A stretch of 64,000 nt of DNA, taken from positions 403,922 to 467,921 of the forward strand of contig NZ_CP029762.1 of assembly GCF_006874585.1 (NCBI RefSeq). The letters are read 5' to 3'. This document shows, in pieces, positions 25,146-37,091 of the stretch (position 1 is its first letter; each line of letters starts with the position of its first letter). The notes below the pieces were generated by a model. It made no database searches and had not been told where the DNA came from. It saw nothing but the letters and a program-made list of their open reading frames with translations. Source of the stretch: Sphingomonas sp. IC081 (lineage in GTDB: Bacteria; Pseudomonadota; Alphaproteobacteria; Sphingomonadales; Sphingomonadaceae). Both the position numbers and the translations under genes were made by a program.

Positions 25146-26660
25146 ATGTTGGTTGTGGAGACGATTACGAGGATCCGTCGGGAGCACCGGGACGGTAAGC
25201 CGATCAAGGCGATAGCGCGGGATTTGCGGCTGTCGCGCAACACGGTGCGCAAGGCGATCCGGGCGCCGAACGCGGATGCCAGTTACGAGCGCAAGGAACA
25301 GCATCGGCCGCAGACCGGCCCTTTCAGCACTCGCCTGGAAGAACTGCTTGAAGAGAACGAAGGGCTGCCCCGGCGTGACCGGCTTCGCATGACGCGGATC
25401 CATGATCTGCTTCAGCGCGAAGGGTTTGGCGGCTCTTATGACGCTGTGCGGCGCTATGCTGCACGCTGGAAGCGTGAGCGTCGCGTTGACGCCGGCGATA
25501 TGACCAAGGCGTTCATCCCGTTGATGTACCGGCCCGGCGAGGCTTACCAGTTCGACTGGAGCCATGAGGACGTCGAGATCGCCGGCAAGCCAATGCGCGT
25601 GAAGGTCGCGCATATGCGGTTTTGCTGGTCACGGGCACCATTTGTCCGTGCCTATCCTCGCGAGACGCAAGAGATGGTGTTCGACGCACATGCCCGCGCC
25701 TTTGCCTTCTTCGGTGGGATTCCGACGCGCGGCATCTACGACAATATGAAGACGGCGGTGACGACGGTGTTCACCGGCAAGGAACGCCTGTTCAACCGGC
25801 GGTTTCTGATCATGACGGACCACTATCGCGTTGAGCCGGTGGCCTGTAGTCCTGCCGCAGGGTGGGAGAAGGGTCAGGTCGAGAACCAGGTTCAGACCAG
25901 TAGGGAGCGCCTGTTCAAGCCGCGCCTGCGCTTTGCCAGCCTCGAGGAACTGAACATCTGGCTGGAAGCCGAGTGCCGGCGCTGGGCGGAACGCAACCAG
26001 CATCCTGACCAGGAAGGCATGACGATCGCGCAGGCGCTGGAGGTGGAGCGGCCGATGCTGCAACCGCTACCGGTTCCCTTCGACGGGTTCTTCGAGAGCG
26101 AACACGTAGCCAGTTCGACGTGCCTCGTGAGCTTCGATCGCAATCGGTACTCGGTGATGGCAAAGGCGGCCCATCAGGCTGTGCAGGTGCGGGCCTATGC
26201 AACGCGCATCGTGATCCGCTGCGACGGCGCTGTCGTGGCCGAACACGAACGGGTCTTCGGCCGGAACCAGACAATCTTCGATCCATGGCACTACCTGCCC
26301 ATCCTCGCCCGCAAGCCCGGTGCGTTGCGCAATGGTGCTCCCTTCCAGGACTGGGCTCTCCCACCTGCACTGGCCCAATTGCGGCGTAAGTTGGGCAAGG
26401 GCGACGATGCCGACCGGCGCTTTGTACGCGTCCTCGCCGCTGTCCCCGAAGATGGCCTGGAGGCTGTCGAGGCCGCAGTGCGCGAGGCACTCAGCGCCGG
26501 TACTATCAGCGACGAGATCATCCTCAACATCCTGTCCCGTCGCCGCGAGCCTCATGATGCCCAGGCTATGGACGTCGTCGTCAACCTGAAGCTCAAGCAT
26601 CCGCCAGAGGCGAACTGCGGCCGCTACGATACCGTGCGAGACCTCGATGCAGCGGCATGA
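25146..26660 (+). CDS. istA: IS21-family transposase IstA
   Basis: The protein has 504 residues. An N-terminal helix-turn-helix ([19 protein letters not shown]) precedes the integrase core, whose DDE residues appear in [23 protein letters not shown] and [11 protein letters not shown]. The frame is intact. IstA cuts and joins the ends with help from the IstB ATPase, whose gene overlaps it by 14 bases. Everything needed for transposition seems present. Confidence 0.95.
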
Positions 26661-27375
26661 GATCATGGCCGCCCTCAAGGGGCTGGGGCTCAAGGGCATG
26701 GTGGCGGCCTTCGATGATGCCGTCACCAACGGCATCCGCCGAGACAGAACGGTCATGGAGATGTTGGGCGACCTGTTGCGTGCGGAGACGGCGCACCGGG
26801 ATGCGGCATCGATCCGTTATCGCATGACCGCAGCCAAGCTTCCGGCGATCAAGGACCTGGATGGGTTCATGTTCGATGGCACGCCGATCAACGAAGGACT
26901 GATCCGCTCGCTTCATACGGGCTCGTTCCTGCCGGAACGGCGCAATATCGTGCTGATCGGCGGAACAGGCACGGGCAAGACTCATCTGGCTCTCGCCATC
27001 ACCGCCGCAGTGGTGCGCGCCGGTGCCAGAGGCCGATACTTCAATACGGTCGATCTGGTGAACCGGCTTGAGGAAGAGGCTCGCCTGGGCAAGGCCGGCA
27101 GCCTTGCCACCCAACTCTCGCGGCTTGATCTCGTGGTGCTTGACGAGCTCGGCTACCTGCCGTTCGCCCGGTCCGGTGGCCAGATGCTCTTCCACCTGAT
27201 CAGCAAGCTCTACGAAAAGACCTCGGTCATTATCACGACCAATCTCGCCTTCGGCGAATGGCCGAGCGTCTTCCACGACCCCAAGATGACCACCGCTCTT
27301 CTCGATCGCATCACGCACCACTGCGACATCATCGAGACGGGCAATGACAGCTGGCGGTTCAAAAACCGGAACTGA
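26647..27375 (+). CDS. istB: IS21-family helper ATPase IstB
   Basis: The protein has 242 residues. A DnaC/DnaA-like AAA+ core shows Walker [12 protein letters not shown] (about residues 105-115) and Walker [13 protein letters not shown]. IstB multimerises on target DNA and directs IstA. It starts inside the end of istA (ATG at 26647, overlap 14 bases), the standard IS21 coupling. From 27376 to the end of the element about 200 bases hold no gene beyond terminal repeats. Confidence 0.95.
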
Positions 27376-27575: not shown

Positions 27576-27674
27576 CGCCGGTTGACAGCGCTGGGCGATG
27601 GCAAGGCCGATACCGGCCGTCGATCCGGTGACGAGGGCGGTCTTTCCGGTGAGTTTGAGGTCCATCTGGGGCAT
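27576..27674 (-). pseudogene. Short-chain dehydrogenase/reductase, N-terminal stub
   Basis: The first 30 or so residues read MDLKLTGKTALVTGSTAGIG and then LAIAQRC, the TGxxxGIG cofactor motif of SDR enzymes. The rest is missing because the IS21-family element abuts at about 27575. AAGGA lies nine bases before the ATG at 27665. The LysR gene at 27783 is divergent and was probably its regulator. Confidence 0.8.
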
Positions 27675-27782
27675 TCCTTTACGTCGGGGGGAGAGGGATG
27701 ACCGGAAGATAGGCGAAGTCGGCATTGATGATTAGATCGAGGCAATGCATCTTAGAAGTGCATTGGAATCACGAGTAAGGCC

Positions 27783-28676
27783 ATGGACAACCGCTTAGGC
27801 GACATGCAGATTTTCCTCGCCGTGGCGCAGTCGGGCAGCTTTGCCGGTGCCGCTCGGGCCCTTCGGCTGACGCCGTCCGCGGTCAGCCGGGCGATCTCCC
27901 GGCTGGAACTCCGCCTCGGCGTGCAGATGGTGAGCCGGACCACGCGTGCCTTGTCGCTGACCGCCGAAGGCGAAGTCTATCGTGAGCGCGTCTCCGGGCT
28001 CATCGCCGAAGTTGACGAAGTGGAGCGCGGCTTCATGGCAAACGAGGAAGCCCCGAGGGGGCCGCTGCGCGTCAACGCCTCGGTGCCGTTCGGGACCCAG
28101 TGCCTGCTGCCGATCCTGCCGCGCTTTCTGGCCCGCTATCCGGCAGTGCGGGTGGAACTGGCGCTGGCCGATGAACTGGTCGACCTGGTCGAGGCGCGCG
28201 CGGACATCGCGATCCGCATCGGCCCGCTGCGGGACACCGGGCTGAAGGCCAAGAAGCTGGCTCGCAGCGCCATGGCGCTGGTGGCCAGTCCCGCCTACCT
28301 TGAGGCGCGGGGCATGCCGGGCCACCCGCGCGACCTCGCCCGGCACGCCTGCCTCCAGTTCAGCTTCCGTCGCTCGCTCGACAGCTGGCCGTTCCGCATC
28401 GATGGTGCGCTTGTCCAGCGGTCGGTCGAGGCCGCGTTCCTCGGCAATTCGGGGGAGGTGGTACGGCTCATGGCGGTCGCCGGCGGCGGGATCGCCCGGC
28501 TCGGGCAGTTCCACGTCGCCGCCGATCTGGCGGCGGGGCGACTGGTGGAAGTTCTCGGCGCCTTCAATCCCGGTGATCACGAGGAGATCCACGCGCTCTA
28601 CGTTGGTCATCGGCGCATGGCCTCGCGCATCCGCGCCTTCCTGGATTTTCTCGACGCGGAGCTGCGGTTCATCTAA
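27783..28676 (+). CDS. LysR-family transcriptional regulator
   Basis: The protein has 297 residues. The helix-turn-helix (FLAVAQSGSFAGAARALRLTPSAVSRAISRLE, about residues 11-42) and effector domain (from RGPLRVNASVPFGTQCLLPIL) are complete. It is divergent from the SDR stub, so its original target has been destroyed by the IS21-family event. In the promoter space AATGCA (27744-27749) and TGCATT (27759-27764) form an inverted repeat that might be its operator. It is also the nearest complete regulator to the three promoters with the shared 29-bp motif; a link is possible but untested. Confidence 0.9.
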   Translation: MDNRLGDMQIFLAVAQSGSFAGAARALRLTPSAVSRAISRLELRLGVQMVSRTTRALSLTAEGEVYRERVSGLIAEVDEVERGFMANEEAPRGPLRVNASVPFGTQCLLPILPRFLARYPAVRVELALADELVDLVEARADIAIRIGPLRDTGLKAKKLARSAMALVASPAYLEARGMPGHPRDLARHACLQFSFRRSLDSWPFRIDGALVQRSVEAAFLGNSGEVVRLMAVAGGGIARLGQFHVAADLAAGRLVEVLGAFNPGDHEEIHALYVGHRRMASRIRAFLDFLDAELRFI

Positions 28677-28809
28677 CGCTTTTCGATATTATCGAACATT
28701 TGGATTTATATTATCGCGATTTCGCGAAAACCTGAAAAGGCGCATCTGCATCTGCGAGCCGGACGTCCGATGAGGCGCAGCCTCCGGTACCCCATGCAGG
28801 AGCAGTGCC

Positions 28810-28986
28810 ATGACCCGGATGATCGAGAACCTTCATGAACGCGCCCGGCCTTATGCCAATATGGCCCAGCCGGTGATCATCGCGCTGAGCACGGCGGGTC
28901 TGACCGGCGGGACGATGGCCGCACTGGGCCTGATTGCCGATCACGCCTGGCGCCGCCGCAAGGCCGGAAGCGCGCTCGTCAACTGA
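28810..28986 (+). CDS. Small membrane protein, 58 residues
   Basis: The ATG at 28810 is preceded by AGGAG at seven bases. The product has a charged N-terminus (MTRMIENLHERARP), one hydrophobic segment (about residues 22-43, with GLTGGTMAALGLIA) and a basic tail (WRRRKAG), the pattern of a single-pass inner membrane protein. I do not recognise a family. A factor-independent terminator follows at 29053. Upstream, 28684-28693 carries CGATATTATC, the core of the motif shared by three neighbouring operons. Confidence 0.6.
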   Translation: MTRMIENLHERARPYANMAQPVIIALSTAGLTGGTMAALGLIADHAWRRRKAGSALVN

Positions 28987-29126: not shown

Positions 29127-29155
29127 GGGTGCGGGCGCCAGGCCCGCACCCTTTT
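29127..29155. terminator. Hairpin between convergent units
   Basis: GGGTGCGGGC (29127-29136) and GCCCGCACCC (29142-29151) form a perfect 10-bp stem, with TTTT on the plus strand. It directly follows the stop codon of the minus-strand DUF1275 gene and may serve both directions. Confidence 0.65.
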
Positions 29156-29859
29156 CATACCTTGTGAGGCAAGGCCGAGACCGGATCGCGGGCGAACAGC
29201 GCCGTGCTGCCGACCACCAAGATGCTGGCCACGACCAGCGGTACCGCGAGGTTGAAGCGCAGCAATGCCGCGCCAAGGGCCGCGCCAAGGAAGATCGACA
29301 GCACCGCCGCAAAACGCCGCGCGAAGTTGGGAGAGGCCGAACGGCCGGTCTGGTCGGCGGCGATGCCGGTAATTGTCAAGGTCAGCACGGTGGTGGTGAG
29401 ATCCGGAACCTTCAGGGCACGGATCGTGGCGTTGCGCAGGCCCATTGCGAAGCCCGTCAGCACGATCACCGTCAGCACGGCCGCTTCCGGCGCCTGGGCT
29501 GCGACGTCGATGGTCAGCGCGACCAGCGCGGCAGCGAGAAGCAGGCTGCCTTCGACAACCGCAGCGCGCAGAAGCCAGCGCCGCAGCGGCAAGGCGGCAT
29601 GGGCGCGGGCTAGCTTGCCCGCCCCCCATGCGCCGCCCATGAAGGCCAGCAGCGCCATGACCGCAGGCAGAACCTTGAAGCCGGGCGTGCCGACCGCGGC
29701 GAATCCGAGGAACACGACATTGCCGGTCATGTTGGCGGTGAAGACCTTGCCGAGCCCCAGCACCGACGCGGCGTCGACGAGGCCGGTGGTGGCGGACAGC
29801 AGCAACAGCAGCCGTGGGAGCGAAGAGGATGAGCTTGGTGGAGGCGGTGTTGCTGTCAT
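29155..29859 (-). CDS. DUF1275 (YoaK-like) integral membrane protein
   Basis: The protein has 234 residues and about six hydrophobic helices. ATTGLVDAASVLGLGKVFTA and ANMTGNVVFLGFA near the N-terminus, GFAMGLRNATIRAL, and LTLTITGIAADQTG are the conserved blocks of DUF1275. The function of this inner membrane family is not established; a transport role has been supposed. An ATG with GGAG nearby gives a Pro/Ser-rich cytosolic lead. Its promoter contains one copy of the 29-bp motif (29924-29952), also found before the two operons downstream in the window, so it probably shares their regulator. Confidence 0.88.
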   Translation of the reverse strand: MTATPPPPSSSSSLPRLLLLLSATTGLVDAASVLGLGKVFTANMTGNVVFLGFAAVGTPGFKVLPAVMALLAFMGGAWGAGKLARAHAALPLRRWLLRAAVVEGSLLLAAALVALTIDVAAQAPEAAVLTVIVLTGFAMGLRNATIRALKVPDLTTTVLTLTITGIAADQTGRSASPNFARRFAAVLSIFLGAALGAALLRFNLAVPLVVASILVVGSTALFARDPVSALPHKV

Positions 29860-29923
29860 GGCGATCTCCGGGGGGGAAAGAGAGGTAGTGCCGCAGGTCT
29901 AGGTCCATGCCGCAATGGCCGGT

Positions 29924-29952
29924 ATCCGCATAAGATCGTTCGTTTCGTTCGA
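29924..29952 (-). promoter_or_regulatory. Shared 29-bp motif, copy 1 (before DUF1275 gene)
   Basis: Plus-strand order is ATCCG, one base, ATAA, one base, ATCG, nine bases, TTCGA. All 18 fixed positions match those at 32809 and 36835. An 18-bp palindrome, TCGTTTCG-TT-CGAAACGA (29940-29957), overlaps it. The motif ends 64 bp from the start codon. Confidence 0.75.
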
Positions 29953-29968
29953 AACGATGGAATGCCGA

Positions 29969-31342
29969 TCAGAACCGGAAGTTGCTTTCGAGACCAAGCA
30001 TGCGGATCGTTTTGGCGGAGCCGGTCTCGCGGATGAAGCGGCCGGGGGCAAAGGCGGAAAGCGATGCGGAAAGTTCGAGTTCGGCCGTCGCCTGCCAGGC
30101 GAGCGTCGCTTCCACTTCCTTGCCGACGAATTTCGCGCGGCTGTTGCCGGCATCGCGGATCAGGTTGCCGGGGATGTCGTATATCCCGTCTTCCCGCGAA
30201 TAGCGCCAATAGGCCATGGCGGCGAAGCTGGCCGAGACATCCGGCGCCAGCTGCATGCCAAGCGAGGAATAGACATTGACGATGTTGTAGGGGCCGACCG
30301 GCGAGAGTTCGCCGAAATACTTACCCTTGGGGAATAGCGCATTGAACGTGCCGAGCCGGTTGTCTGACCGGTTCCTGTCGCCGCTGACGACATTGACGCG
30401 CAGCGTGAGATCGGGCGTCAGCGGGGCGTCCGGGAAGGCACGGCCGAGTTCGGTGCCGAGCGTCCAGGCCGAGATGGGCCCGTCCGCAAAGCGGCCGAAC
30501 TGGTAGACGCCCTCGACGTTCCAGTGCCAGTCATCCTGCTTGCCGTGCCAGCGTGCGCCAAGGCTGTGGCGGGTTTCGGTGCCGGTGCGGGTGCCCCAGT
30601 GCGCCGCATCGTTGCGGTAGCCGAGATAGTAGAGGTCGAGCGTCGGCAGCGTGGCATAGGCGCCCCAGAGCGACTTGTCAGGCGAGGTGCGGTCGTTGAA
30701 ATCACCCTTGCGTGCCTGAACGGGCTTGACCGCGAGCAGGCTGACGGTGGCCGCGCCCAGCGTGACATTCGTGCGCAGGCCATCGAAGGCGAGCGGCACG
30801 TTGGGGCCGTAGCGGGTGCCGATCAGCCGCTCGGTGCCGAGCGAGAGCATCTGCCGCCCGGCGCGCAGGGTGATCGCGCCGAGGTCGGCCTCGACGAAAC
30901 CTTGCAGCAGGTCGACGCCGGTGCCGTCCACCGGGCCCGGCGAGGGCGCGACGCTGGCCGATGTCGAGGCGATCGGCTGAACGAAGGCCCGCAGCTTGCC
31001 GACATGGAGATCGGCATAAGGCAAGGCGCGAAACCAGACGTAGCTGTCGTTCGGCGCCTCAGCGCCGCCCCAGAGGTTGTTCTCCAGATTTTCGTTGCGC
31101 ACACGCAGTTCGATGCCGGTGGAAAGCCAGACGTCATCGCTGATGGGGATGTACTTGAATTGCCCGGTCCAGTGGTGCGCGCGCTTTTCGGTATCGGCGA
31201 GGTCCGACCAGTCTTCGTCGTAGCGGGTGATCGAGAGGGTAGGCGCCTGCCATGCCTCGGTGGGTTCGGCCTGCGCGGCCGTTGGTGCCATACCCGGCAG
31301 GACTGTGGCCGCGAGCAATGCCAGCGGAAGAAACCTAGGCAC
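29969..31342 (-). CDS. Alginate-export-type outer membrane porin
   Basis: The protein has 457 residues with a signal peptide ending at AAQAEP and a beta-rich body ending in phenylalanine (LESNFRF), as in outer membrane barrels. Blocks such as STGIELRVRNENLENN, AFVQPIAS, QGFVEADLG, RAGRQMLSLGTERLIGTRYGPN and FNALFPKGKYFGELSPVGPYN are characteristic of the alginate-export (PF13372-like) family; many members outside Pseudomonas are channels for organic acids or aromatic compounds rather than alginate exporters. A GTG at 31342 overlaps the end of the DoxX gene by eight bases. It is the last gene of a three-gene operon. Confidence 0.85.
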   Translation of the reverse strand: MPRFLPLALLAATVLPGMAPTAAQAEPTEAWQAPTLSITRYDEDWSDLADTEKRAHHWTGQFKYIPISDDVWLSTGIELRVRNENLENNLWGGAEAPNDSYVWFRALPYADLHVGKLRAFVQPIASTSASVAPSPGPVDGTGVDLLQGFVEADLGAITLRAGRQMLSLGTERLIGTRYGPNVPLAFDGLRTNVTLGAATVSLLAVKPVQARKGDFNDRTSPDKSLWGAYATLPTLDLYYLGYRNDAAHWGTRTGTETRHSLGARWHGKQDDWHWNVEGVYQFGRFADGPISAWTLGTELGRAFPDAPLTPDLTLRVNVVSGDRNRSDNRLGTFNALFPKGKYFGELSPVGPYNIVNVYSSLGMQLAPDVSASFAAMAYWRYSREDGIYDIPGNLIRDAGNSRAKFVGKEVEATLAWQATAELELSASLSAFAPGRFIRETGSAKTIRMLGLESNFRF

Positions 31343-31763
31343 TGCGCTGCGCCCGGTAAGCAAGGATCGCGACCAGAATGAACCCGCCGACAAGGCCCAT
31401 ATGCTCGAAGAAGGCGTTGGTGGCGCCGAAGCGCTCGGGACCGGCGGGCATGGCCCAGAAGGCATTGGCGACCAGCGCGGCGAAGAAAGTGAATACGCCG
31501 AGCATGCCTGCGCCCAGCCAGACGAGACGGCCCGTCAGGATCAGCAGGGGGGCGATCAGTTCCACCGCGATGGTGAGCGCCGCCCAGAGCGCGGGAGGCG
31601 TCAGGCCGAAGTGGGCCTGTTCCGCCACGGCGCCGGGCCAGTCGGTCAGCTTGGTAAGTCCGCCGACGAGGTAAGCGCCCACCAGCAGGAGGCGGGCGAG
31701 GAACCCCGTCGGTGCGAAGTCCAGCACCGATGCAACGAATTTGGGAGTACCGGTGCCGGACAT
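31335..31763 (-). CDS. DoxX-family membrane protein
   Basis: The protein has 142 residues and four hydrophobic segments. FLARLLLVGAYLVGGLTKLTDWPG and the helix VELIAPLLILTGRLVWLGAGML fit the DoxX family. Members occur with redox enzymes or quinone-linked systems, and their exact role varies. The gene starts four bases after the VOC gene stop and overlaps the porin gene, so all three are made together. Confidence 0.85.
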   Translation of the reverse strand: MSGTGTPKFVASVLDFAPTGFLARLLLVGAYLVGGLTKLTDWPGAVAEQAHFGLTPPALWAALTIAVELIAPLLILTGRLVWLGAGMLGVFTFFAALVANAFWAMPAGPERFGATNAFFEHMGLVGGFILVAILAYRAQRSA

Positions 31764-31766
31764 GGC

Positions 31767-32672
31767 TCAGTTCACCTCGCCGGAATGAATCTCGGCGATG
31801 TAGCCGCCGGGGAAGCGGACGATGGCAGCTTGACGCTTGCCCGTCGTGTAGGGCGCGACCAGCGTTTCCACGCCGGCTGCCGAAGCCTTGGCAAGCGTTG
31901 CGTTGAGGTCACCGACCGCATAGCCGGTCATGTCGCGGCCATAGGGCCAGGGCAATTGGCCGTCCGAGACGTAGACCACCATCTTGCCGTAGCCGCTGGT
32001 GATCGCGACGCGGCGGATGGTCTTGCCGGGTTCGCCGATCTCGGCGCCATTGGCGGCCTTGTCGTCGGCGGTGATCTTGGCCTGGGCGAAGCCGGTCCAG
32101 CTCTTGATGAAGGTATCGGCGGCATCGACGGTCAGGTAGATGCGGTTTTCCGGCACGGTTTCGAGCGGGGTGTAGCTCGGCTTGGCGGTGTGCCAGTAAA
32201 GCTGCATGTTCACGCCGCCCGGCCATTGGATCACGGAATCCCGGCCGATCGGATCGGGGAAGGTTTCCAGACGGCGCACGGCGCCATGGCTGACTGCGGA
32301 CTTCACCGCGGCGTCGAGGTCGGTGACCAGATAGCCGGTGCGCTCATCGCCGAAGGGGTAGGGGATCGGCGTCTTGAAGCCGAAAACCGAGACGGTGCCC
32401 GCCGGCGTCAGCACCAGCTGCGACTTGGTGAGGCTCTTGGTCGGCGTCACCTGGAATTCGCCCTGCTTGCTGGTGGTGCCGCCGAATGTGGCGACGAAGC
32501 TGGAAACGAACGTGTCGAACTGATCCTGCGGGACGTAGACGTGGGTGGTGTCGTACTGCGCGCCGACCGAATAGTCGGCCGAGGCGGCGGCAGGCTTGGC
32601 GATAGCGGCGGGAACTGCGATCGGGCTGGTGGCGATCACGGCAGCGGCGAAGAGGAAGGCAAAGCGCTTCAT
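31767..32672 (-). CDS. Exported two-domain VOC (glyoxalase/bleomycin-resistance fold) protein
   Basis: The protein has 301 residues with a signal peptide cut near AIAKPA. Two paired VOC-like modules are visible: residues about 35-160 (YDTTHVYVPQDQFDTFVSSFVATFGG, GYLVTDLDAAVKSAVSHGA) and 165-300 (RIYLTVDAADTFIKSWTGF, GYAVGDLNATLAKASAAGVE, ending FPGGYIAEIHSG). Export is unusual for this mostly cytosolic metal-enzyme fold; the periplasm is its likely site. The reaction is unknown. It leads the operon VOC-DoxX-porin. GGAG precedes the ATG, and the shared 29-bp motif lies 137 bp upstream. Confidence 0.82.
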   Translation of the reverse strand: MKRFAFLFAAAVIATSPIAVPAAIAKPAAASADYSVGAQYDTTHVYVPQDQFDTFVSSFVATFGGTTSKQGEFQVTPTKSLTKSQLVLTPAGTVSVFGFKTPIPYPFGDERTGYLVTDLDAAVKSAVSHGAVRRLETFPDPIGRDSVIQWPGGVNMQLYWHTAKPSYTPLETVPENRIYLTVDAADTFIKSWTGFAQAKITADDKAANGAEIGEPGKTIRRVAITSGYGKMVVYVSDGQLPWPYGRDMTGYAVGDLNATLAKASAAGVETLVAPYTTGKRQAAIVRFPGGYIAEIHSGEVN

Positions 32673-32808
32673 CGAAGGTCTCCTGAGGGGCGTTTCTCGG
32701 GGGCGAGTTTCATCGTCGTCTCGGACTGCTCCTCCCTGTTCTGGCCCCATATTCTGGGGATGGGCGGAGCTTCCGGGATCGGTGTAGGGCGCAGACGAGC
32801 GGCTATCG

Positions 32809-32837
32809 ATCCGAATAATATCGTTCGATATGTTCGA
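32809..32837 (-). promoter_or_regulatory. Shared 29-bp motif, copy 2 (before VOC-DoxX-porin operon)
   Basis: It has the same fixed positions as the copies at 29924 and 36835: ATCCG, one base, ATAA, one base, ATCG, nine bases, TTCGA. The palindrome ATATCG-TT-CGATAT (32818-32831) lies within it. Confidence 0.75.
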
Positions 32838-32855
32838 GATTATGGAAATGTAGCT

Positions 32856-32889
32856 GATGTGGCCCCTCCTCGCCCGGAGGGGCCGCATC
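32856..32889 (-). terminator. Stem-loop just after the amidohydrolase gene
   Basis: GATGTGGCCCCTCC (32856-32869) and GGAGGGGCCGCATC (32876-32889) form a 14-bp stem with one G-T pair and a six-base loop. It starts three bases past the stop codon of the minus-strand gene. No T-run follows. Confidence 0.6.
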
Positions 32890-32892
32890 GGA

Positions 32893-34836
32893 TCAGACGG
32901 CCCAGCAGCCGCAGCCGAGCGAACCCCAGAAGGTCTGGACATCGGCTGCGGGAACATTGGCGCCCAGCGCAGCGGCATGGTCGTGGCCGTGGACGCCGCA
33001 GGAACTGGCACAGCCGCAGGCCGAGGCCAGCTTCTGCTTGGCTTCGGGCGTCTGGTAATAGCCGCCGAACGTGGCGACCGGCGACCAGTCCGGCATCGGG
33101 CGCGGCAGTTCCGGCGCGAGCGGGCGATAGTCGCCCTCGCCATGCACCACCTTGCCGCCCAGCAGCGTCAGGATCGAGCGGATGTGGACGATCTCATTGT
33201 CGGGCACGCTGAAGTAATCGTCGGACAGCAGTGCGAGGTCGGCCAGCTGGCCCGCCTTGATCTGGCCCTTCTTGCCCACTTCGTTGGAGAACCAGGTGTT
33301 CTCGTGCGTCCACATGCGCAGCGCCTTCTCGCGGCTGACGCGGTTGTCGCCGCGATAGAGCGAGAGGCCGCCCACGGTGCGCCCGGTGACCAGCCACGAG
33401 AGCGAGACCCAGGGGTTGTAGCTGGCGACGCGGGTAGCGTCGGTGCCGCCGCCCACGGGGATGCCGGCAGCCAGCATCCGGGCGATCGGCGGCGTGCGTT
33501 CGGCCGCCTTGGCGCCGTAGCGCTCGAAGAAGTATTCGCCCTGATAGGCCATGCGGTGCTGCACCGCGATGCCGCCGCCGAGCGCGGCGATGCGGTCGAT
33601 ATTGCGGTCCGAAATGGTCTCGGCGTGGTCGAAGAACCAGTTGATGCCCTGTAGCGGGATGTCGCGGTTGACCTTCTCGTAGACGTCGAGCGCGCGGCCG
33701 ATGGTTTCGTCATAAGTGGCGTGAAGGCGCCAGGGCCAGCGATGCTCGGCGAGCAGGCGGATGACGGGTTCCAGATCGCCTTCCATGCTGGGCGGCATGT
33801 CCGGGCGTTCGACGCGGAAATCCTCGAAGTCGGCAGCGGAATAGACCAGCATCTCGCCCGCGCCGTTTTGGCGATAGGTGTCGTCGCCCTGTCCGGGGCT
33901 GACTTGCTTCACCCAGTCCGAGAAGTCCGCGAGTTCCTCCTTCGGCTTCTGCGTGAAGAGGTTGTAGCTGATGCGCACGGTCAGCTGGTCTTCGGCGTGG
34001 AGCTTCTCGATGATGTCGTAATCGTCGGGATAGTTCTGGAAGCCGCCGCCCGCGTCGATCACCCCGGTGACGCCCAGTGCGTTGACTTCGCGCATGAAGT
34101 GGCGGGTGGAGTTGAGCTGGTACTCGGGCGGTAGTTTGGGGCCCTTGGCGAGCGTCGAATAGAGGATCGTCGCATTGGGCTGGGCGAGCAGCAGGCCGGT
34201 GGGGTTGCCGGCGGCATCACGCACGATCTCACCGCCCGGCGGGTTCGGCGTGTCCTTGGTATAGCCGACGACGCGCAGCGCGGCAGCGTTCAGCAGCGCG
34301 CGGTCGTAGAGGTGCAGGATGAAGACCGGTGTATCGGGGGCGACGGCGTTCAGTTCCGCGATGGTCGGCAGGCGCTTCTCGGCGAACTGGTGCTCGGTAA
34401 AGCCGCCGACGACGCGGACCCACTGCGGGGCGGGGGTGTTGTCGACCTGCCTCTTCAGCATTGCCATCGCCTCTGCCAGCGAGGTCACGCCGTCCCAGCG
34501 CAGCTCCATGTTGAAGTTCAGGCCGCCGCGGATGATGTGCATGTGGCTGTCGATGAGGCCGGGGATCAGGCGGTGGCCCTTGGCGTCGATCACGACGGCG
34601 CCTGGCGCGGCGGCTTCGCGTGCTTCCTGCTCGCTGCCCACGGTCAGGAACTTGCCGTCACGGATGACTACCGCTTCGGCTTGCGGGTTCTCGCGGTCGA
34701 GAGTGGTCACTTTGGCGTTGACGATGATCGTATCGGTCATGGGGGCTTCCTTGGATCGGACGGTCTGGCTGGTGAGCATGGAGGGCAGCAGGGAGGTGGC
34801 CGCCGCTCCGAGGAATGTATGGCGGCGGGTGATCAC
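32893..34836 (-). CDS. Amidohydrolase (YtcJ-like metal-dependent hydrolase) with Cys/His-rich tail
   Basis: The protein has 647 residues. The metal-binding HxH is in GLIDSHMHIIRGG (H98, H100), further histidines lie in WRLHATYDE and INWFFDHAETI, and the late aspartate is in VGGGTDATRVASYNPW, so this is an amidohydrolase-3 enzyme. A GTG at 34836 overlaps the XapX stop as GTGA and gives an RRHTFLG twin-arginine-like leader; the ATG at 34740 with AAGGA is a cytosolic alternative. The last 45 residues contain five cysteines and a VHGHDH cluster (ACGCASSC, GCGC), which may bind a metal. The substrate is unknown. It is the last gene of its operon. Confidence 0.85.
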   Translation of the reverse strand: MITRRHTFLGAAATSLLPSMLTSQTVRSKEAPMTDTIIVNAKVTTLDRENPQAEAVVIRDGKFLTVGSEQEAREAAAPGAVVIDAKGHRLIPGLIDSHMHIIRGGLNFNMELRWDGVTSLAEAMAMLKRQVDNTPAPQWVRVVGGFTEHQFAEKRLPTIAELNAVAPDTPVFILHLYDRALLNAAALRVVGYTKDTPNPPGGEIVRDAAGNPTGLLLAQPNATILYSTLAKGPKLPPEYQLNSTRHFMREVNALGVTGVIDAGGGFQNYPDDYDIIEKLHAEDQLTVRISYNLFTQKPKEELADFSDWVKQVSPGQGDDTYRQNGAGEMLVYSAADFEDFRVERPDMPPSMEGDLEPVIRLLAEHRWPWRLHATYDETIGRALDVYEKVNRDIPLQGINWFFDHAETISDRNIDRIAALGGGIAVQHRMAYQGEYFFERYGAKAAERTPPIARMLAAGIPVGGGTDATRVASYNPWVSLSWLVTGRTVGGLSLYRGDNRVSREKALRMWTHENTWFSNEVGKKGQIKAGQLADLALLSDDYFSVPDNEIVHIRSILTLLGGKVVHGEGDYRPLAPELPRPMPDWSPVATFGGYYQTPEAKQKLASACGCASSCGVHGHDHAAALGANVPAADVQTFWGSLGCGCWAV

Positions 34837-35105
34837 GCCTCGCCCTTGTGGTCGGAGGTGCGGCAGGGGAACTTGTCGCCCGGCAAGCGGCCGAGAACGT
34901 GCTTGCGGCAGTCGGTCTGGACGAACTGGGCGACTTCCTCGTGCGCCCAGATCTTTTTCGCCAGCGGCACGATCTGCTCGCCGAGCAGGATACCGAGAAG
35001 CCCGATCAGGGCAATCATCGGCGGGGCCGGCGAACGGACACCGAGGAGACTGTAGACCACGCCCACCAGCAGCCCGGCAGCAATCGAGAGAAGGTAGGGT
35101 TTCAT
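34833..35105 (-). CDS. XapX (DUF1427) domain small membrane protein
   Basis: The protein has 90 residues. The first 45, with AAGLLVGVVYSLLGVRSPAPP and ALIGLLGILLGEQ, are the two-helix XapX domain. The rest is a soluble tail with two cysteines (TDCRKH, FPCRT). The family has no settled function and commonly sits beside amidohydrolase and hydrolase genes like those here. It is cotranscribed with both neighbours and overlaps the amidohydrolase start by four bases. Confidence 0.85.
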   Translation of the reverse strand: MKPYLLSIAAGLLVGVVYSLLGVRSPAPPMIALIGLLGILLGEQIVPLAKKIWAHEEVAQFVQTDCRKHVLGRLPGDKFPCRTSDHKGEA

Positions 35106-35131
35106 GGCTCGGTCTCCCCGGTGGCTCTGGG

Positions 35132-35968
35132 TCAGGCCTGCACGAAGGCGAGCAGGTCGGGATTGATGATGTCGGCGTTGACGGTCAGCATGCCGTGCGA
35201 GAAGCCCTCGTAGATCTTGAGCGTCGCGTTCGGCAGGATCTCGGCCTGGAGCACGCCGGCGTTCTTGTAGGGGACGACCTGATCGTCATCGCCGTGGAGG
35301 ACGAGGGTGGGGACCGTGATCGCCGCCAAATCGTCGGTCTGGTCGGTTTCCGAGAAGGCCTTGATGCCTTCGTAGTGGGCCTTGGCGCTGCCGGTCATGC
35401 CCTGGCGCCACCAGTTGTCGATCACGGCGGGCAGCACGTTCGCGCCTTCGCGGTTGAAGCCGTAGAACGGGCCCGAGGCGACATCGCGGAAGAACTGCGA
35501 GCGGTTGGCGGCAAGGCCTTCGCGCAGGCCGTCGAACACTTCGATCGGCAGGCCGCCGGGGTAACGCTCGGTCTTGAGCATGATCGGCGGCACGGCGCTG
35601 ACCAGCACGGCCTTGGCGACGCGGCCCTGCGGGATGCCGTAGCGGGCGACATAGGCGGCCACTTCACCGCCGCCGGTCGAGTGGCCGATGTGGACCGCGT
35701 TCCTGAGGTCGAGGTGTTCGATCACCGCCGCGGCATCGGCGGCGTAGTGGTCCATGTCATGACCCTCGCTCACCTGTTCCGAGCGGCCATGACCCCGGCG
35801 GTCATGGGCGACGACGCGGTAGCCCTTGGAGAGGAAGAACAGCATCTGCGCATCCCAGTCTTCCGACGAGAGCGGCCAGCCGTGGTGGAAGACGATCGGC
35901 TGGGCGTCCTTCGGGCCCCAGTCCTTGTAGAAGATTTGGGTGTCGTCCTTGGTGGTTACGTATGCCAT
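35132..35968 (-). CDS. Alpha/beta hydrolase of the cofactor-free haloperoxidase (arylesterase) family
   Basis: The protein has 278 residues. HHGWPLSSEDWDAQM, HDRRGHGRS, the nucleophile S97 in IGHSTGGGE, the aspartate in LHGDDDQVVP (about residue 228) and the histidine in GFSHGML (about 257) complete the triad. Proteins of this family hydrolyse esters or lactones and can make peracids; halogenation by them is a side reaction in vitro. No signal peptide is present. The gene lies between the isochorismatase-like gene and XapX on the same strand, so it belongs to one operon of four. Confidence 0.9.
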   Translation of the reverse strand: MAYVTTKDDTQIFYKDWGPKDAQPIVFHHGWPLSSEDWDAQMLFFLSKGYRVVAHDRRGHGRSEQVSEGHDMDHYAADAAAVIEHLDLRNAVHIGHSTGGGEVAAYVARYGIPQGRVAKAVLVSAVPPIMLKTERYPGGLPIEVFDGLREGLAANRSQFFRDVASGPFYGFNREGANVLPAVIDNWWRQGMTGSAKAHYEGIKAFSETDQTDDLAAITVPTLVLHGDDDQVVPYKNAGVLQAEILPNATLKIYEGFSHGMLTVNADIINPDLLAFVQA

Positions 35969-36081
35969 GATGCTGATCCTTGGGTGGGTTGGGAGAGGGA
36001 TTTTGGGGAGGGAAGGGTGGGGACCGGCGACCTTCGGTGAGGGCCGGATGGGGGGATCGGCCGCCAGTCCCGAGCTTTAAA

Positions 36082-36753
36082 TCAGTGCGCGCCTTCCGAA
36101 GCGCCGAACATGGTCTTGGCGTAGTTGATGCCGATGCCGTAAGCGCCGCCCCACTTCTTCGCGATGCCGGTGGTGCTGTCGTAGGTTTCGGTGCGGGCCC
36201 AGTCGCGCTGCAGTTCGAGCAGGTACTGGAGCGAGGTCATCGGCACGGCGCCGAGCTGGATCATGCGCTCCACCGCACGCTCATGTGCTTCGGTCGAGAT
36301 GTCGCCGCAGGCGTCGGTGATGACGTAGGCTTCGAAGCCCTGGTCGATGGCCGAGGCAACCGGGCCGACGATGCAGACCGAGGTCCACAGACCGGCGAAG
36401 ACGATGCGGGGCTTGGCGATGCGGTTGATCTCTTCGATCACGCCTTCGTCTTCCCAGGTGTTCATGCTCGTGCGGTCGAGCATCTTCTGGCCGTCGAAGG
36501 CTTCGGTGATCTCGTCGAACATCGGGCCGGAGAAGCTCTTTTCGGCAACCGTGGTGAGGATGGTGGGGACGCCGAACGACTTGGCGCCGCGCGAAATCAG
36601 GGCTGCGTTGTTGCGGAGGAGTTCGGCCGAAATGGACTTGGTGGCAAACGCCATCTGCGACTGGAAGTCGATCAGGACAAGCGCATGATTGTCAGGCGAG
36701 ATCAGCGACTTGCCGGGGGTTGCGATAGCGGTCGGGGTTGCGGTGACGGTCAT
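36082..36753 (-). CDS. Isochorismatase-like (YcaC-type) cysteine hydrolase
   Basis: The protein has 223 residues. The catalytic aspartate is in ALVLIDFQSQMAF, the lysine region is FDGQKMLDRTSMNTWED, and the cysteine is in AGLWTSVCIVGPVASAI, all typical of the cysteine hydrolase superfamily that cleaves amide or vinyl-ether bonds. The C-terminal extension (RDWARTETYDSTTGIAKKWGGAYG) marks the YcaC-like branch. It is first in the operon isochorismatase-haloperoxidase-XapX-amidohydrolase, led by the shared 29-bp motif 82 bp upstream. Three hydrolases in a row suggest stepwise breakdown of an amide or ester compound. Confidence 0.9.
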   Translation of the reverse strand: MTVTATPTAIATPGKSLISPDNHALVLIDFQSQMAFATKSISAELLRNNAALISRGAKSFGVPTILTTVAEKSFSGPMFDEITEAFDGQKMLDRTSMNTWEDEGVIEEINRIAKPRIVFAGLWTSVCIVGPVASAIDQGFEAYVITDACGDISTEAHERAVERMIQLGAVPMTSLQYLLELQRDWARTETYDSTTGIAKKWGGAYGIGINYAKTMFGASEGAH

Positions 36754-36834
36754 TGGTAAGCTCCTGTCCTCAAAGTGTCAGTGCCGGGGCGGCGTCTGGT
36801 GAAGCCTTTGTTGCCCGGTTTCGCCGAATGGAAA

Positions 36835-36863
36835 ATCCGGATAAAATCGCTAAAAACATTCGA
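36835..36863 (-). promoter_or_regulatory. Shared 29-bp motif, copy 3 (before isochorismatase-like operon)
   Basis: It has the fixed positions ATCCG, one base, ATAA, one base, ATCG, nine bases, TTCGA, identical to the two other copies, while the spacer bases differ. This is what is expected of a protein-binding site kept by selection. Confidence 0.75.
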
Positions 36864-37091
36864 TGAAATTGAAATGTCGTCGAACGCCGCGATTGTGCCC
36901 CCAAGAGCGTCCGCTGGGTATCAACCGTTGGTAGGGGCAACCTTGGTATGGGGGCGCTCATCCAACAGGACAGGTTTGGGTTATACCACGCGGTCAGCAG
37001 TGCGGAAATGTAATGGCGCCTGCGAAAAATGGGCGAGGCAAGGCCCGGTCGCGGTGCTAGGCGGCGTGGACGGTTTCACAGGAGAGAATGC
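36864..37091. other. Intergenic region without a recognised gene
   Basis: These 228 bases between the motif and the small membrane protein gene contain short open frames only. They probably hold the promoter of the gene at 37092. Confidence 0.4.

Follow-up and report, generated by a model that had tools for sequence, protein, structure and literature searches.

The promoters of the classical LysR activators BenM, CatR and CbnR carry a T-N11-A box near -66 and a second element near -40, and the regulator gene is divergent. The recognition and activation sites of LysR promoters usually lie near -66 and at about -49 to -35. YhaJ of Escherichia coli is a LysR that has been used in explosive-detecting biosensors. 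In the passages cited, it is required for the induction of yqjF by dinitrotoluene (DNT), hydroquinone or catechol and for the hydroquinone induction of yhaK, ybiJ, ygiD, yhhW and, partly, yceP; it binds these six promoters in electrophoretic mobility shift assays, and mutation of the T-N11-A box abolishes the DNT induction of yqjF (PMC5031710). A chromatin immunoprecipitation study of YhaJ in four E. coli strains refers to partial-dyadic T-N11-A sites (PMC7315121), and the recognition and activation sites of a YhaJ promoter have no definitive assignment according to a passage of a 2025 paper (PMC11739112). Here we analyse a stretch of 64,000 nucleotides of Sphingomonas sp. IC081 (contig NZ_CP029762.1, positions 403,922 to 467,921; the window), in which three minus-strand transcription units are preceded by copies of one gapped motif. 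We propose, with a probability of about 0.85, that a YhaJ-type LysR activator drives a regulon whose operator and promoter core is this motif.

The three copies, reported by an earlier sequence-only reading at 29924-29952, 32809-32837 and 36835-36863, are all present there, identical at 18 of 18 fixed positions and each placed in the gap ahead of a named minus-strand gene. On the plus strand the 29-bp (base pair) pattern reads ATCCG-N-ATAA-N-ATCG-N9-TTCGA, that is, TCGAA-N9-CGATnTTATnCGGAT in the direction of the genes, and the spacers vary, neither the 9-bp spacers nor the flanks being alike between copies. With up to 3 mismatches allowed, the window contains these three copies only (shuffle mean, 0.01). 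In the whole 5.52-megabase (Mb) genome the gapped pattern has the same three exact copies, all ahead of genes, and one 3-mismatch match elsewhere, which is at chance level because the pattern read backwards, used as a control, likewise gives one match at 3 mismatches. The motif as first described is therefore real but too short, since conservation extends, in the direction of the genes, to a TTC on the upstream side and to a (T/C)A located 22 bp downstream. A fourth site before a small protein had been suspected from a core half-match at 28684-28693; the site exists, but that match was read in the wrong register. The sequence CGATATTATC at 28684 is rejected as an equivalent of the proximal element, as it forms part of the left box TTCGATATTATCGAA (28682-28696). 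The actual fourth copy surfaced on a window search with fewer fixed positions: it is a 29-mer at 28692-28720 with identical spacing and 4 mismatches to the 18 fixed positions, located before an open reading frame (ORF) of 58 amino acids (aa), and from box to proximal element the site spans 28682-28720. The repeated sequence appears to be a genuine promoter switch. The sites and the genes behind them are as follows.

29948 to 29962, minus strand: Site 1 recognition box TTC-N9-GAA, ahead of the DUF1275 gene (alignment)
29924 to 29938, minus strand: Site 1 proximal element CGATCTTATGCGGAT (pattern search)
29896 to 29901, minus strand: Site 1 predicted -10-like TAGACC, 22 bp downstream of the proximal element
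29155 to 29859, minus strand: DUF1275 membrane protein, target (Pfam)
32833 to 32847, minus strand: Site 2 recognition box TTC-N9-GAA, before VOC-DoxX-porin (alignment)
32809 to 32823, minus strand: Site 2 proximal element CGATATTATTCGGAT (pattern search)
32781 to 32786, minus strand: Site 2 predicted -10-like TACACC
31767 to 32672, minus strand: VOC-like protein, target, with an apparent signal peptide (name from the sequence-only reading)
31335 to 31763, minus strand: DoxX family, second gene of the VOC operon (Pfam)
29969 to 31342, minus strand: alginate-export-type outer-membrane porin, third gene of the VOC operon, start codon uncertain (Pfam)
36859 to 36873, minus strand: Site 3 recognition box TTC-N9-GAA, ahead of the isochorismatase operon (alignment)
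36835 to 36849, minus strand: Site 3 proximal element CGATTTTATCCGGAT (pattern search)
36807 to 36812, minus strand: Site 3 predicted -10 position, AACAAA, weak
36082 to 36753, minus strand: isochorismatase-like hydrolase, target (Pfam)
35132 to 35968, minus strand: alpha/beta hydrolase, second gene of the isochorismatase operon (Pfam; named haloperoxidase-like in the sequence-only reading)
34833 to 35105, minus strand: XapX/DUF1427, third gene of the isochorismatase operon (Pfam)
32893 to 34836, minus strand: amidohydrolase (Amidohydro_3), fourth gene of the isochorismatase operon (Pfam)
28682 to 28696, plus strand: Site 4 recognition box TTCGATATTATCGAA, before the 58-aa ORF (pattern search, model match)
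28706 to 28720, plus strand: Site 4 proximal element, degenerate, TTATATTATCGCGAT (pattern search)
28743 to 28748, plus strand: Site 4 predicted -10 position, CATCTG
28810 to 28986, plus strand: 58-aa protein with a hydrophobic stretch by appearance, probable target (no Pfam family)

The VOC-like protein has no Pfam match at an expectation value (E) of 1e-3. Its gene is preceded by the motif also in genomes G287 (locus L057) and G193 (L135), and the DUF1275 gene also in G193 (L135); in G287 (L057), where VOC and isochorismatase have sites, none was seen that would belong to DUF1275 separately.

The anatomy of the operator was obtained from 397 genomes of the same family, the Sphingomonadaceae, of which 61 contain the pattern at up to 2 mismatches, in 83 places, compared with 9 for the backward pattern (totals summed from a table). 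Twenty regions, chosen as the most motif-like in appearance and representing 23 of the 83 places, were fetched, and alignment A1 comprises 31 sites: the four of the window, one of the four sites of L034 (N. clariflavum) and 26 from these regions. The full order is TTC-N9-GAA, N9, CGATnTTATnCGGmT, N22 and (T/C)A, where TTC-N9-GAA is a T-N11-A LysR box with a partial dyad. The GAA belonged to the search pattern, unlike three columns that played no part in the choice of sites and are nearly or fully invariant: T10 (30/31), C11 (31/31) and A71 (31/31). T or C precedes A71 in 28 of the 31 sites, and the fourth base of the -10-like element is A in 20. The (T/C)A would be the start of a -10 element and, with this predicted -10, the box is centred near -66, while the proximal element spans about -49 to -35.

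A candidate regulator comes from the distribution of the motif. Model R2 is a sequence-only model of 21 sites of other genomes that leaves out the window, N. clariflavum, loci with the operon types of the window and two same-genus loci (alignment A2 retains one site from the genus of the window, in G319); circularity is avoided, as the window sites were kept out of its training. Applied to the 397 genomes, with stricter filters that lose some weak sites, R2 finds 125 sites in 66 genomes at E 0.001. A YhaJ-type LysR (query P0001 from G171, E 1e-60) is present in 134 of the 397 genomes, namely in 64 of the 66 with the motif and in 70 of the 331 others (Fisher p 2e-33, the genomes not being independent), and the motif is accordingly rare without it (2/66). 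In 51 genomes, 54 sites lie at the start of the LysR gene, 53 of them no more than 22 bp, and one 89 bp, from where the protein match begins. Every one of the 54 is divergent, and 44 are in genomes that gave no training site. A divergent regulator is thus found next to the site, as at LysR operators, and this includes the LysR/pirin gap of the present genome. As a separate observation, G046 (L051, L052, L053, L130, L131) has nine motif sites and two YhaJ-type LysR genes, apparently an expanded regulon.

In the genome of Sphingomonas sp. IC081, R2 gives six sites at E up to 5.4e-4, namely the four of the window, which lies on contig C2 (1.04 Mb), and two on contig C1 (3.91 Mb), where the candidate regulator is also encoded. 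The two C1 sites flank the LysR gene (1030420-1031343, minus strand): one is in the gap between this gene and a divergent pirin-pirin-OsmC operon, and the other precedes a DoxX gene on the far side of the LysR, an AraC-type gene (L098:4739-5203) lying in between. The next matches have E 0.107 and 0.309; the former is ahead of a nitroreductase gene with the full geometry present, and to judge from its sequence this nitroreductase, on another contig, probably belongs to the regulon. The claim of a shared regulon is strongly supported, whereas its confinement to the window locus does not hold, the pirin-pirin-OsmC and DoxX units being on another contig. Just upstream of the DoxX site there is also a run of twelve G within an inverted repeat (L098:4601-4612; G000:C1 near 1029600).

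In relatives that have the LysR, the motif is mostly kept upstream of the same target gene. Isochorismatase orthologues at E 1e-70 amount to 33 genes in 30 genomes, and the 32 outside this genome were scored against a cut-off of 10.9, the maximum among the reversed-sequence controls (shuffles did not exceed 3.8), isochorismatase sites being absent from training. The motif is upstream of 20 of the 27 genes where the LysR is present and of none of the five, in four genomes, where it is not (Fisher p 0.004). The lowest of the 20 sites scores 15.2, and the best antisense score is 12.4, apart from a real divergent site in G011. Other targets were sought in 40 regions fetched among the 125 model matches, mostly away from the LysR, which gave, with the 20 most motif-like regions, 59 loci (20 plus 39 further ones, one duplicate being dropped). 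These contain 78 sites scoring at least 30 (none in L160 and L166), and at 67 of them the first gene belongs to one of 13 reference families; for sites outside training the first gene is assigned at 48 of 57. The first genes are pirin A (17), DoxX (10), isochorismatase (9), WrbA (8), pirin B (6), haloperoxidase (5), an unnamed 100-aa protein (5), VOC (2) and, once each, OsmC, DUF1275, nitroreductase, azoreductase and cytochrome b561. In 64 of the 67 assigned cases the first readable start codon, picked mechanically, is at most 74 bp after the site. This tally is a description and no enrichment test, because the loci were chosen, the references for azoreductase, the 100-aa protein and cytochrome b561 were added after viewing the loci, and four of the 67 assignments are a reference protein matching itself. 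The recurrence of the regulon across the family before the same and functionally kindred genes is, from these sequences, strongly supported. Among these families, WrbA, nitroreductase and azoreductase belong to the flavin reductases, pirins resemble quercetinases, and the controlled genes look like a detoxification set. The 100-aa protein (L055:3897-4199), with no Pfam family, is first after the motif at its five sites and is upstream of pirin in G171 and G287.

The relation to YhaJ is apparent at several levels. In a YhaJ search of this genome the C1 LysR is the best match (E 1.7e-25, the next being 2.8e-11). A PDB search with the LysR places 8j4n (LysR family protein) first and the YhaJ domains 9irz and 8h58 13th and 14th among the 20 matches listed. 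In E. coli MG1655, yhaJ is divergent from the bicupin (pirin-like) gene yhaK, and both yqjF (DoxX) and the glutathionyl-hydroquinone reductase gene yqjG are a few kilobases from yhaJ, so that the two systems are alike in the kind of regulator, the divergent pirin-like gene, the nearby DoxX and the T-N11-A box. Pirin and DoxX are among the targets of both, in this genome as well as at 33 of the 78 sites in the chosen loci of relatives. Five of the six reported YhaJ targets (L170, L203-L205) carry NTC-N9-GA(A/T), followed at a distance of 45-46 bp by a -10-like element; at yqjF, yhaK and ygiD, a scan of offsets 42-49 from the box places TAnnnT at exactly 45 bp. The spacing from box to -10-like element is thus N46 in the sphingomonads and N45 in E. 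coli, within 1 bp for five of the six targets. YhaJ and the LysR proteins of the 20 motif loci where the helix was found (L154 repeats L065) also have in common the recognition helix R-x-x-S-x-x-S-Y. The sphingomonads differ from the E. coli YhaJ regulon by the strongly conserved proximal element CGATnTTATnCGGmT and by members of their own: isochorismatase-haloperoxidase-XapX-amidohydrolase, VOC-DoxX-porin, DUF1275, WrbA and nitroreductase.

The divergent regulator is shared with BenM, CatR and CbnR, and so would be the positions of the box and the second element if the predicted sphingomonad -10 is real; unlike these, a single sphingomonad LysR would serve six to seven promoters in its genome. 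Aromatic-responsive LysR proteins other than YhaJ have at most three promoters each, according to a passage of the YhaJ study (PMC5031710). Outside E. coli, adaptive evolution of Pseudomonas BJa5 to furfural and hydroxymethylfurfural is reported to have affected yhaJ in six of six replicates (PMC11840610). Confronted with R. solani, but not with P. aphanidermatum, P. fluorescens In5 is reported to increase the expression of an alpha/beta hydrolase, a hydrolase, a quercetinase/pirin, an azoreductase, LigB and DoxX. These co-induced families (including a flavin mononucleotide-dependent azoreductase, pirin and DoxX) resemble the sphingomonad targets, although this is another bacterial class and the passages cited name no regulator for the induced genes (PMC5557065). 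In the titles and abstract openings of the papers listed by searches of open-licence literature, no description of a sphingomonad regulon of this kind was found.

Several observations weigh against the assignment to a YhaJ-type LysR. The C1 LysR has just 29% identity to YhaJ over 286 aa and is its best match in one search direction. On the E. coli side, the -10 elements of ybiJ (GATACT, 45) and yhhW (CACACT, 46) were aligned by eye, and the yceP promoter of MG1655, scanned alike, gave no such site. At the promoters themselves, the last T of the -10 hexamer is found in only 4 of the 31 aligned sites, the predicted -10 of Site 3 is poor and the proximal element of Site 4 is degenerate. Where the LysR is present, seven of the 27 isochorismatase genes fall short of the control cut-off (G335, with 8.0 and a site by eye; G262; one of two genes of G380; G171; G294; one of two of G043; and G317), and 11 of the 78 sites are without an assigned first gene. 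At E 0.001, no motif was found in 15 of the 73 genomes whose LysR is close to P0001 (63% identity or more) or in 55 of the 61 with only a more distant one, so either the operator drifts or sites are missed; these sequences suggest a drifted operator in the branch whose LysR is less than 63% identical to P0001. To these points is added the AraC-type gene that separates the C1 LysR from DoxX.

This gene bears on a different explanation, that the operator is real but is bound by another transcription factor whose gene lies within or close to the pirin loci, with the LysR as a linked passenger. Co-occurrence alone cannot separate linked genes, and the counts ignore shared ancestry; on the other hand, the site is at the LysR start in 54 cases and has the form of a LysR box, and E. 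coli YhaJ is itself reported to act through a T-N11-A box (PMC5031710, PMC11739112). The AraC-type gene was rejected as a general partner, being found in 1 of the 59 motif loci against 19 of 59 for the YhaJ-type LysR (loci of limited length), and a passenger LysR seems to us improbable. The fixed spacing and the position ahead of genes would also fit the promoter of an alternative sigma factor of the extracytoplasmic function type, with TCGAA as -35 and TTATnCGG as -10. A promoter with both elements within the motif and no upstream dyad is nevertheless rejected, since the conserved TTC and the GAA together form an inverted repeat, and a (T/C)A distinct from them is conserved 22 bp downstream (its A in 31/31 sites); moreover, the motif tracks the LysR gene and sits at its start, which makes a sigma-factor promoter highly improbable. 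Three copies within 7 kilobases, identical at 18 of 18 fixed positions, could suggest recent duplications of one promoter by mobile or recombined DNA, with no shared regulator. This was rejected on the unlike spacers and flanks, and it has against it the recurrence of sites ahead of these genes in other genera (L057, L135) and the two further copies on another contig, so that we consider it barely credible.

The remaining candidate had been raised in the sequence-only reading as a possible regulator because of its proximity:

27783 to 28676, plus strand: LysR gene named earlier, rejected as regulator of the motif

It is of LysR type and adjoins Site 4, and of the 12 genomes that have a close orthologue (64% identity or more), 8 also have the motif. 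Against this, a close orthologue is present in just 8 of the 66 motif genomes and any match at E 1e-60 in 23, compared with 64 of 66 for the YhaJ-type LysR; the fetched flanks of all nine orthologue loci other than that of N. clariflavum, a close relative, have no motif at up to 4 mismatches; and the recognition helix has S-R, in contrast with S-Y in the motif-adjacent LysR proteins and YhaJ. In the YhaJ search of this genome it comes 16th of 24 (E 5.6e-5). LysR genes of this type have, by eye, a conserved upstream sequence of their own, GATTAGA...GCATC..AGAAGTGCAT, and a divergent SDR gene beside them in 6 of 10 loci. Control of the motif by this gene has, in our view, very little chance of being correct.

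The sequence GATTAGA...GCATC..AGAAGTGCAT is located at about 27727-27775 in the window and upstream of the match in L034-L043, and from its sequence and position it is likely the own operator of the 27783 LysR. In the window, the divergent SDR gene (about 27583-27672) retains its first codons only, beside an IS21-like pair at 25146-27375 (a transposase-like ORF at 25146-26660 and an ATP-binding helper at 26647-27375, named by appearance); the SDR gene is intact in N. clariflavum (L034:9085-9891). Because only its first codons are left in the window, the 27783 LysR has probably lost its usual divergent partner.

In the mechanism that we propose for the YhaJ-type LysR, the regulator would come from outside the window (G000:C1:1030420-1031343, minus strand), with the same operator in its gap to pirin-pirin-OsmC. 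LysR dimers would bind the recognition box TTC-N9-GAA, centred near -66, as well as the proximal element CGATnTTATnCGGmT, which would cover about -49 to -35 beside a poor -35 region. The co-inducer-bound regulator would then recruit RNA polymerase to the -10-like element, which lies 22 bp downstream of the proximal one. We infer this binding, as well as activation rather than repression, and the exact -10 is likewise a predicted one. By analogy with E. coli YhaJ, the inducer is probably a quinol- or quinone-like compound or a related reactive aromatic one, and the detoxification genes would be turned on when quinone-like or other reactive compounds are present.

The class of mechanism, a LysR activator with its operator, is ordinary, and the regulon is clear. 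The motif gains a named candidate regulator and a precise promoter anatomy, and several proteins of obscure role are placed in one response. On a broader view, to which we give about even odds, there would be a family-wide electrophile- or quinone-sensing regulon in the Sphingomonadaceae under one YhaJ-type LysR acting in trans, in which DUF1275, XapX/DUF1427, the isochorismatase-like and haloperoxidase-like hydrolases, VOC-DoxX-porin and the 58-aa protein would be dedicated detoxification parts, and the proximal element would be the activation-binding site still to be assigned for YhaJ promoters. For the sphingomonad promoters, conservation proposes both the recognition and the activation sites.

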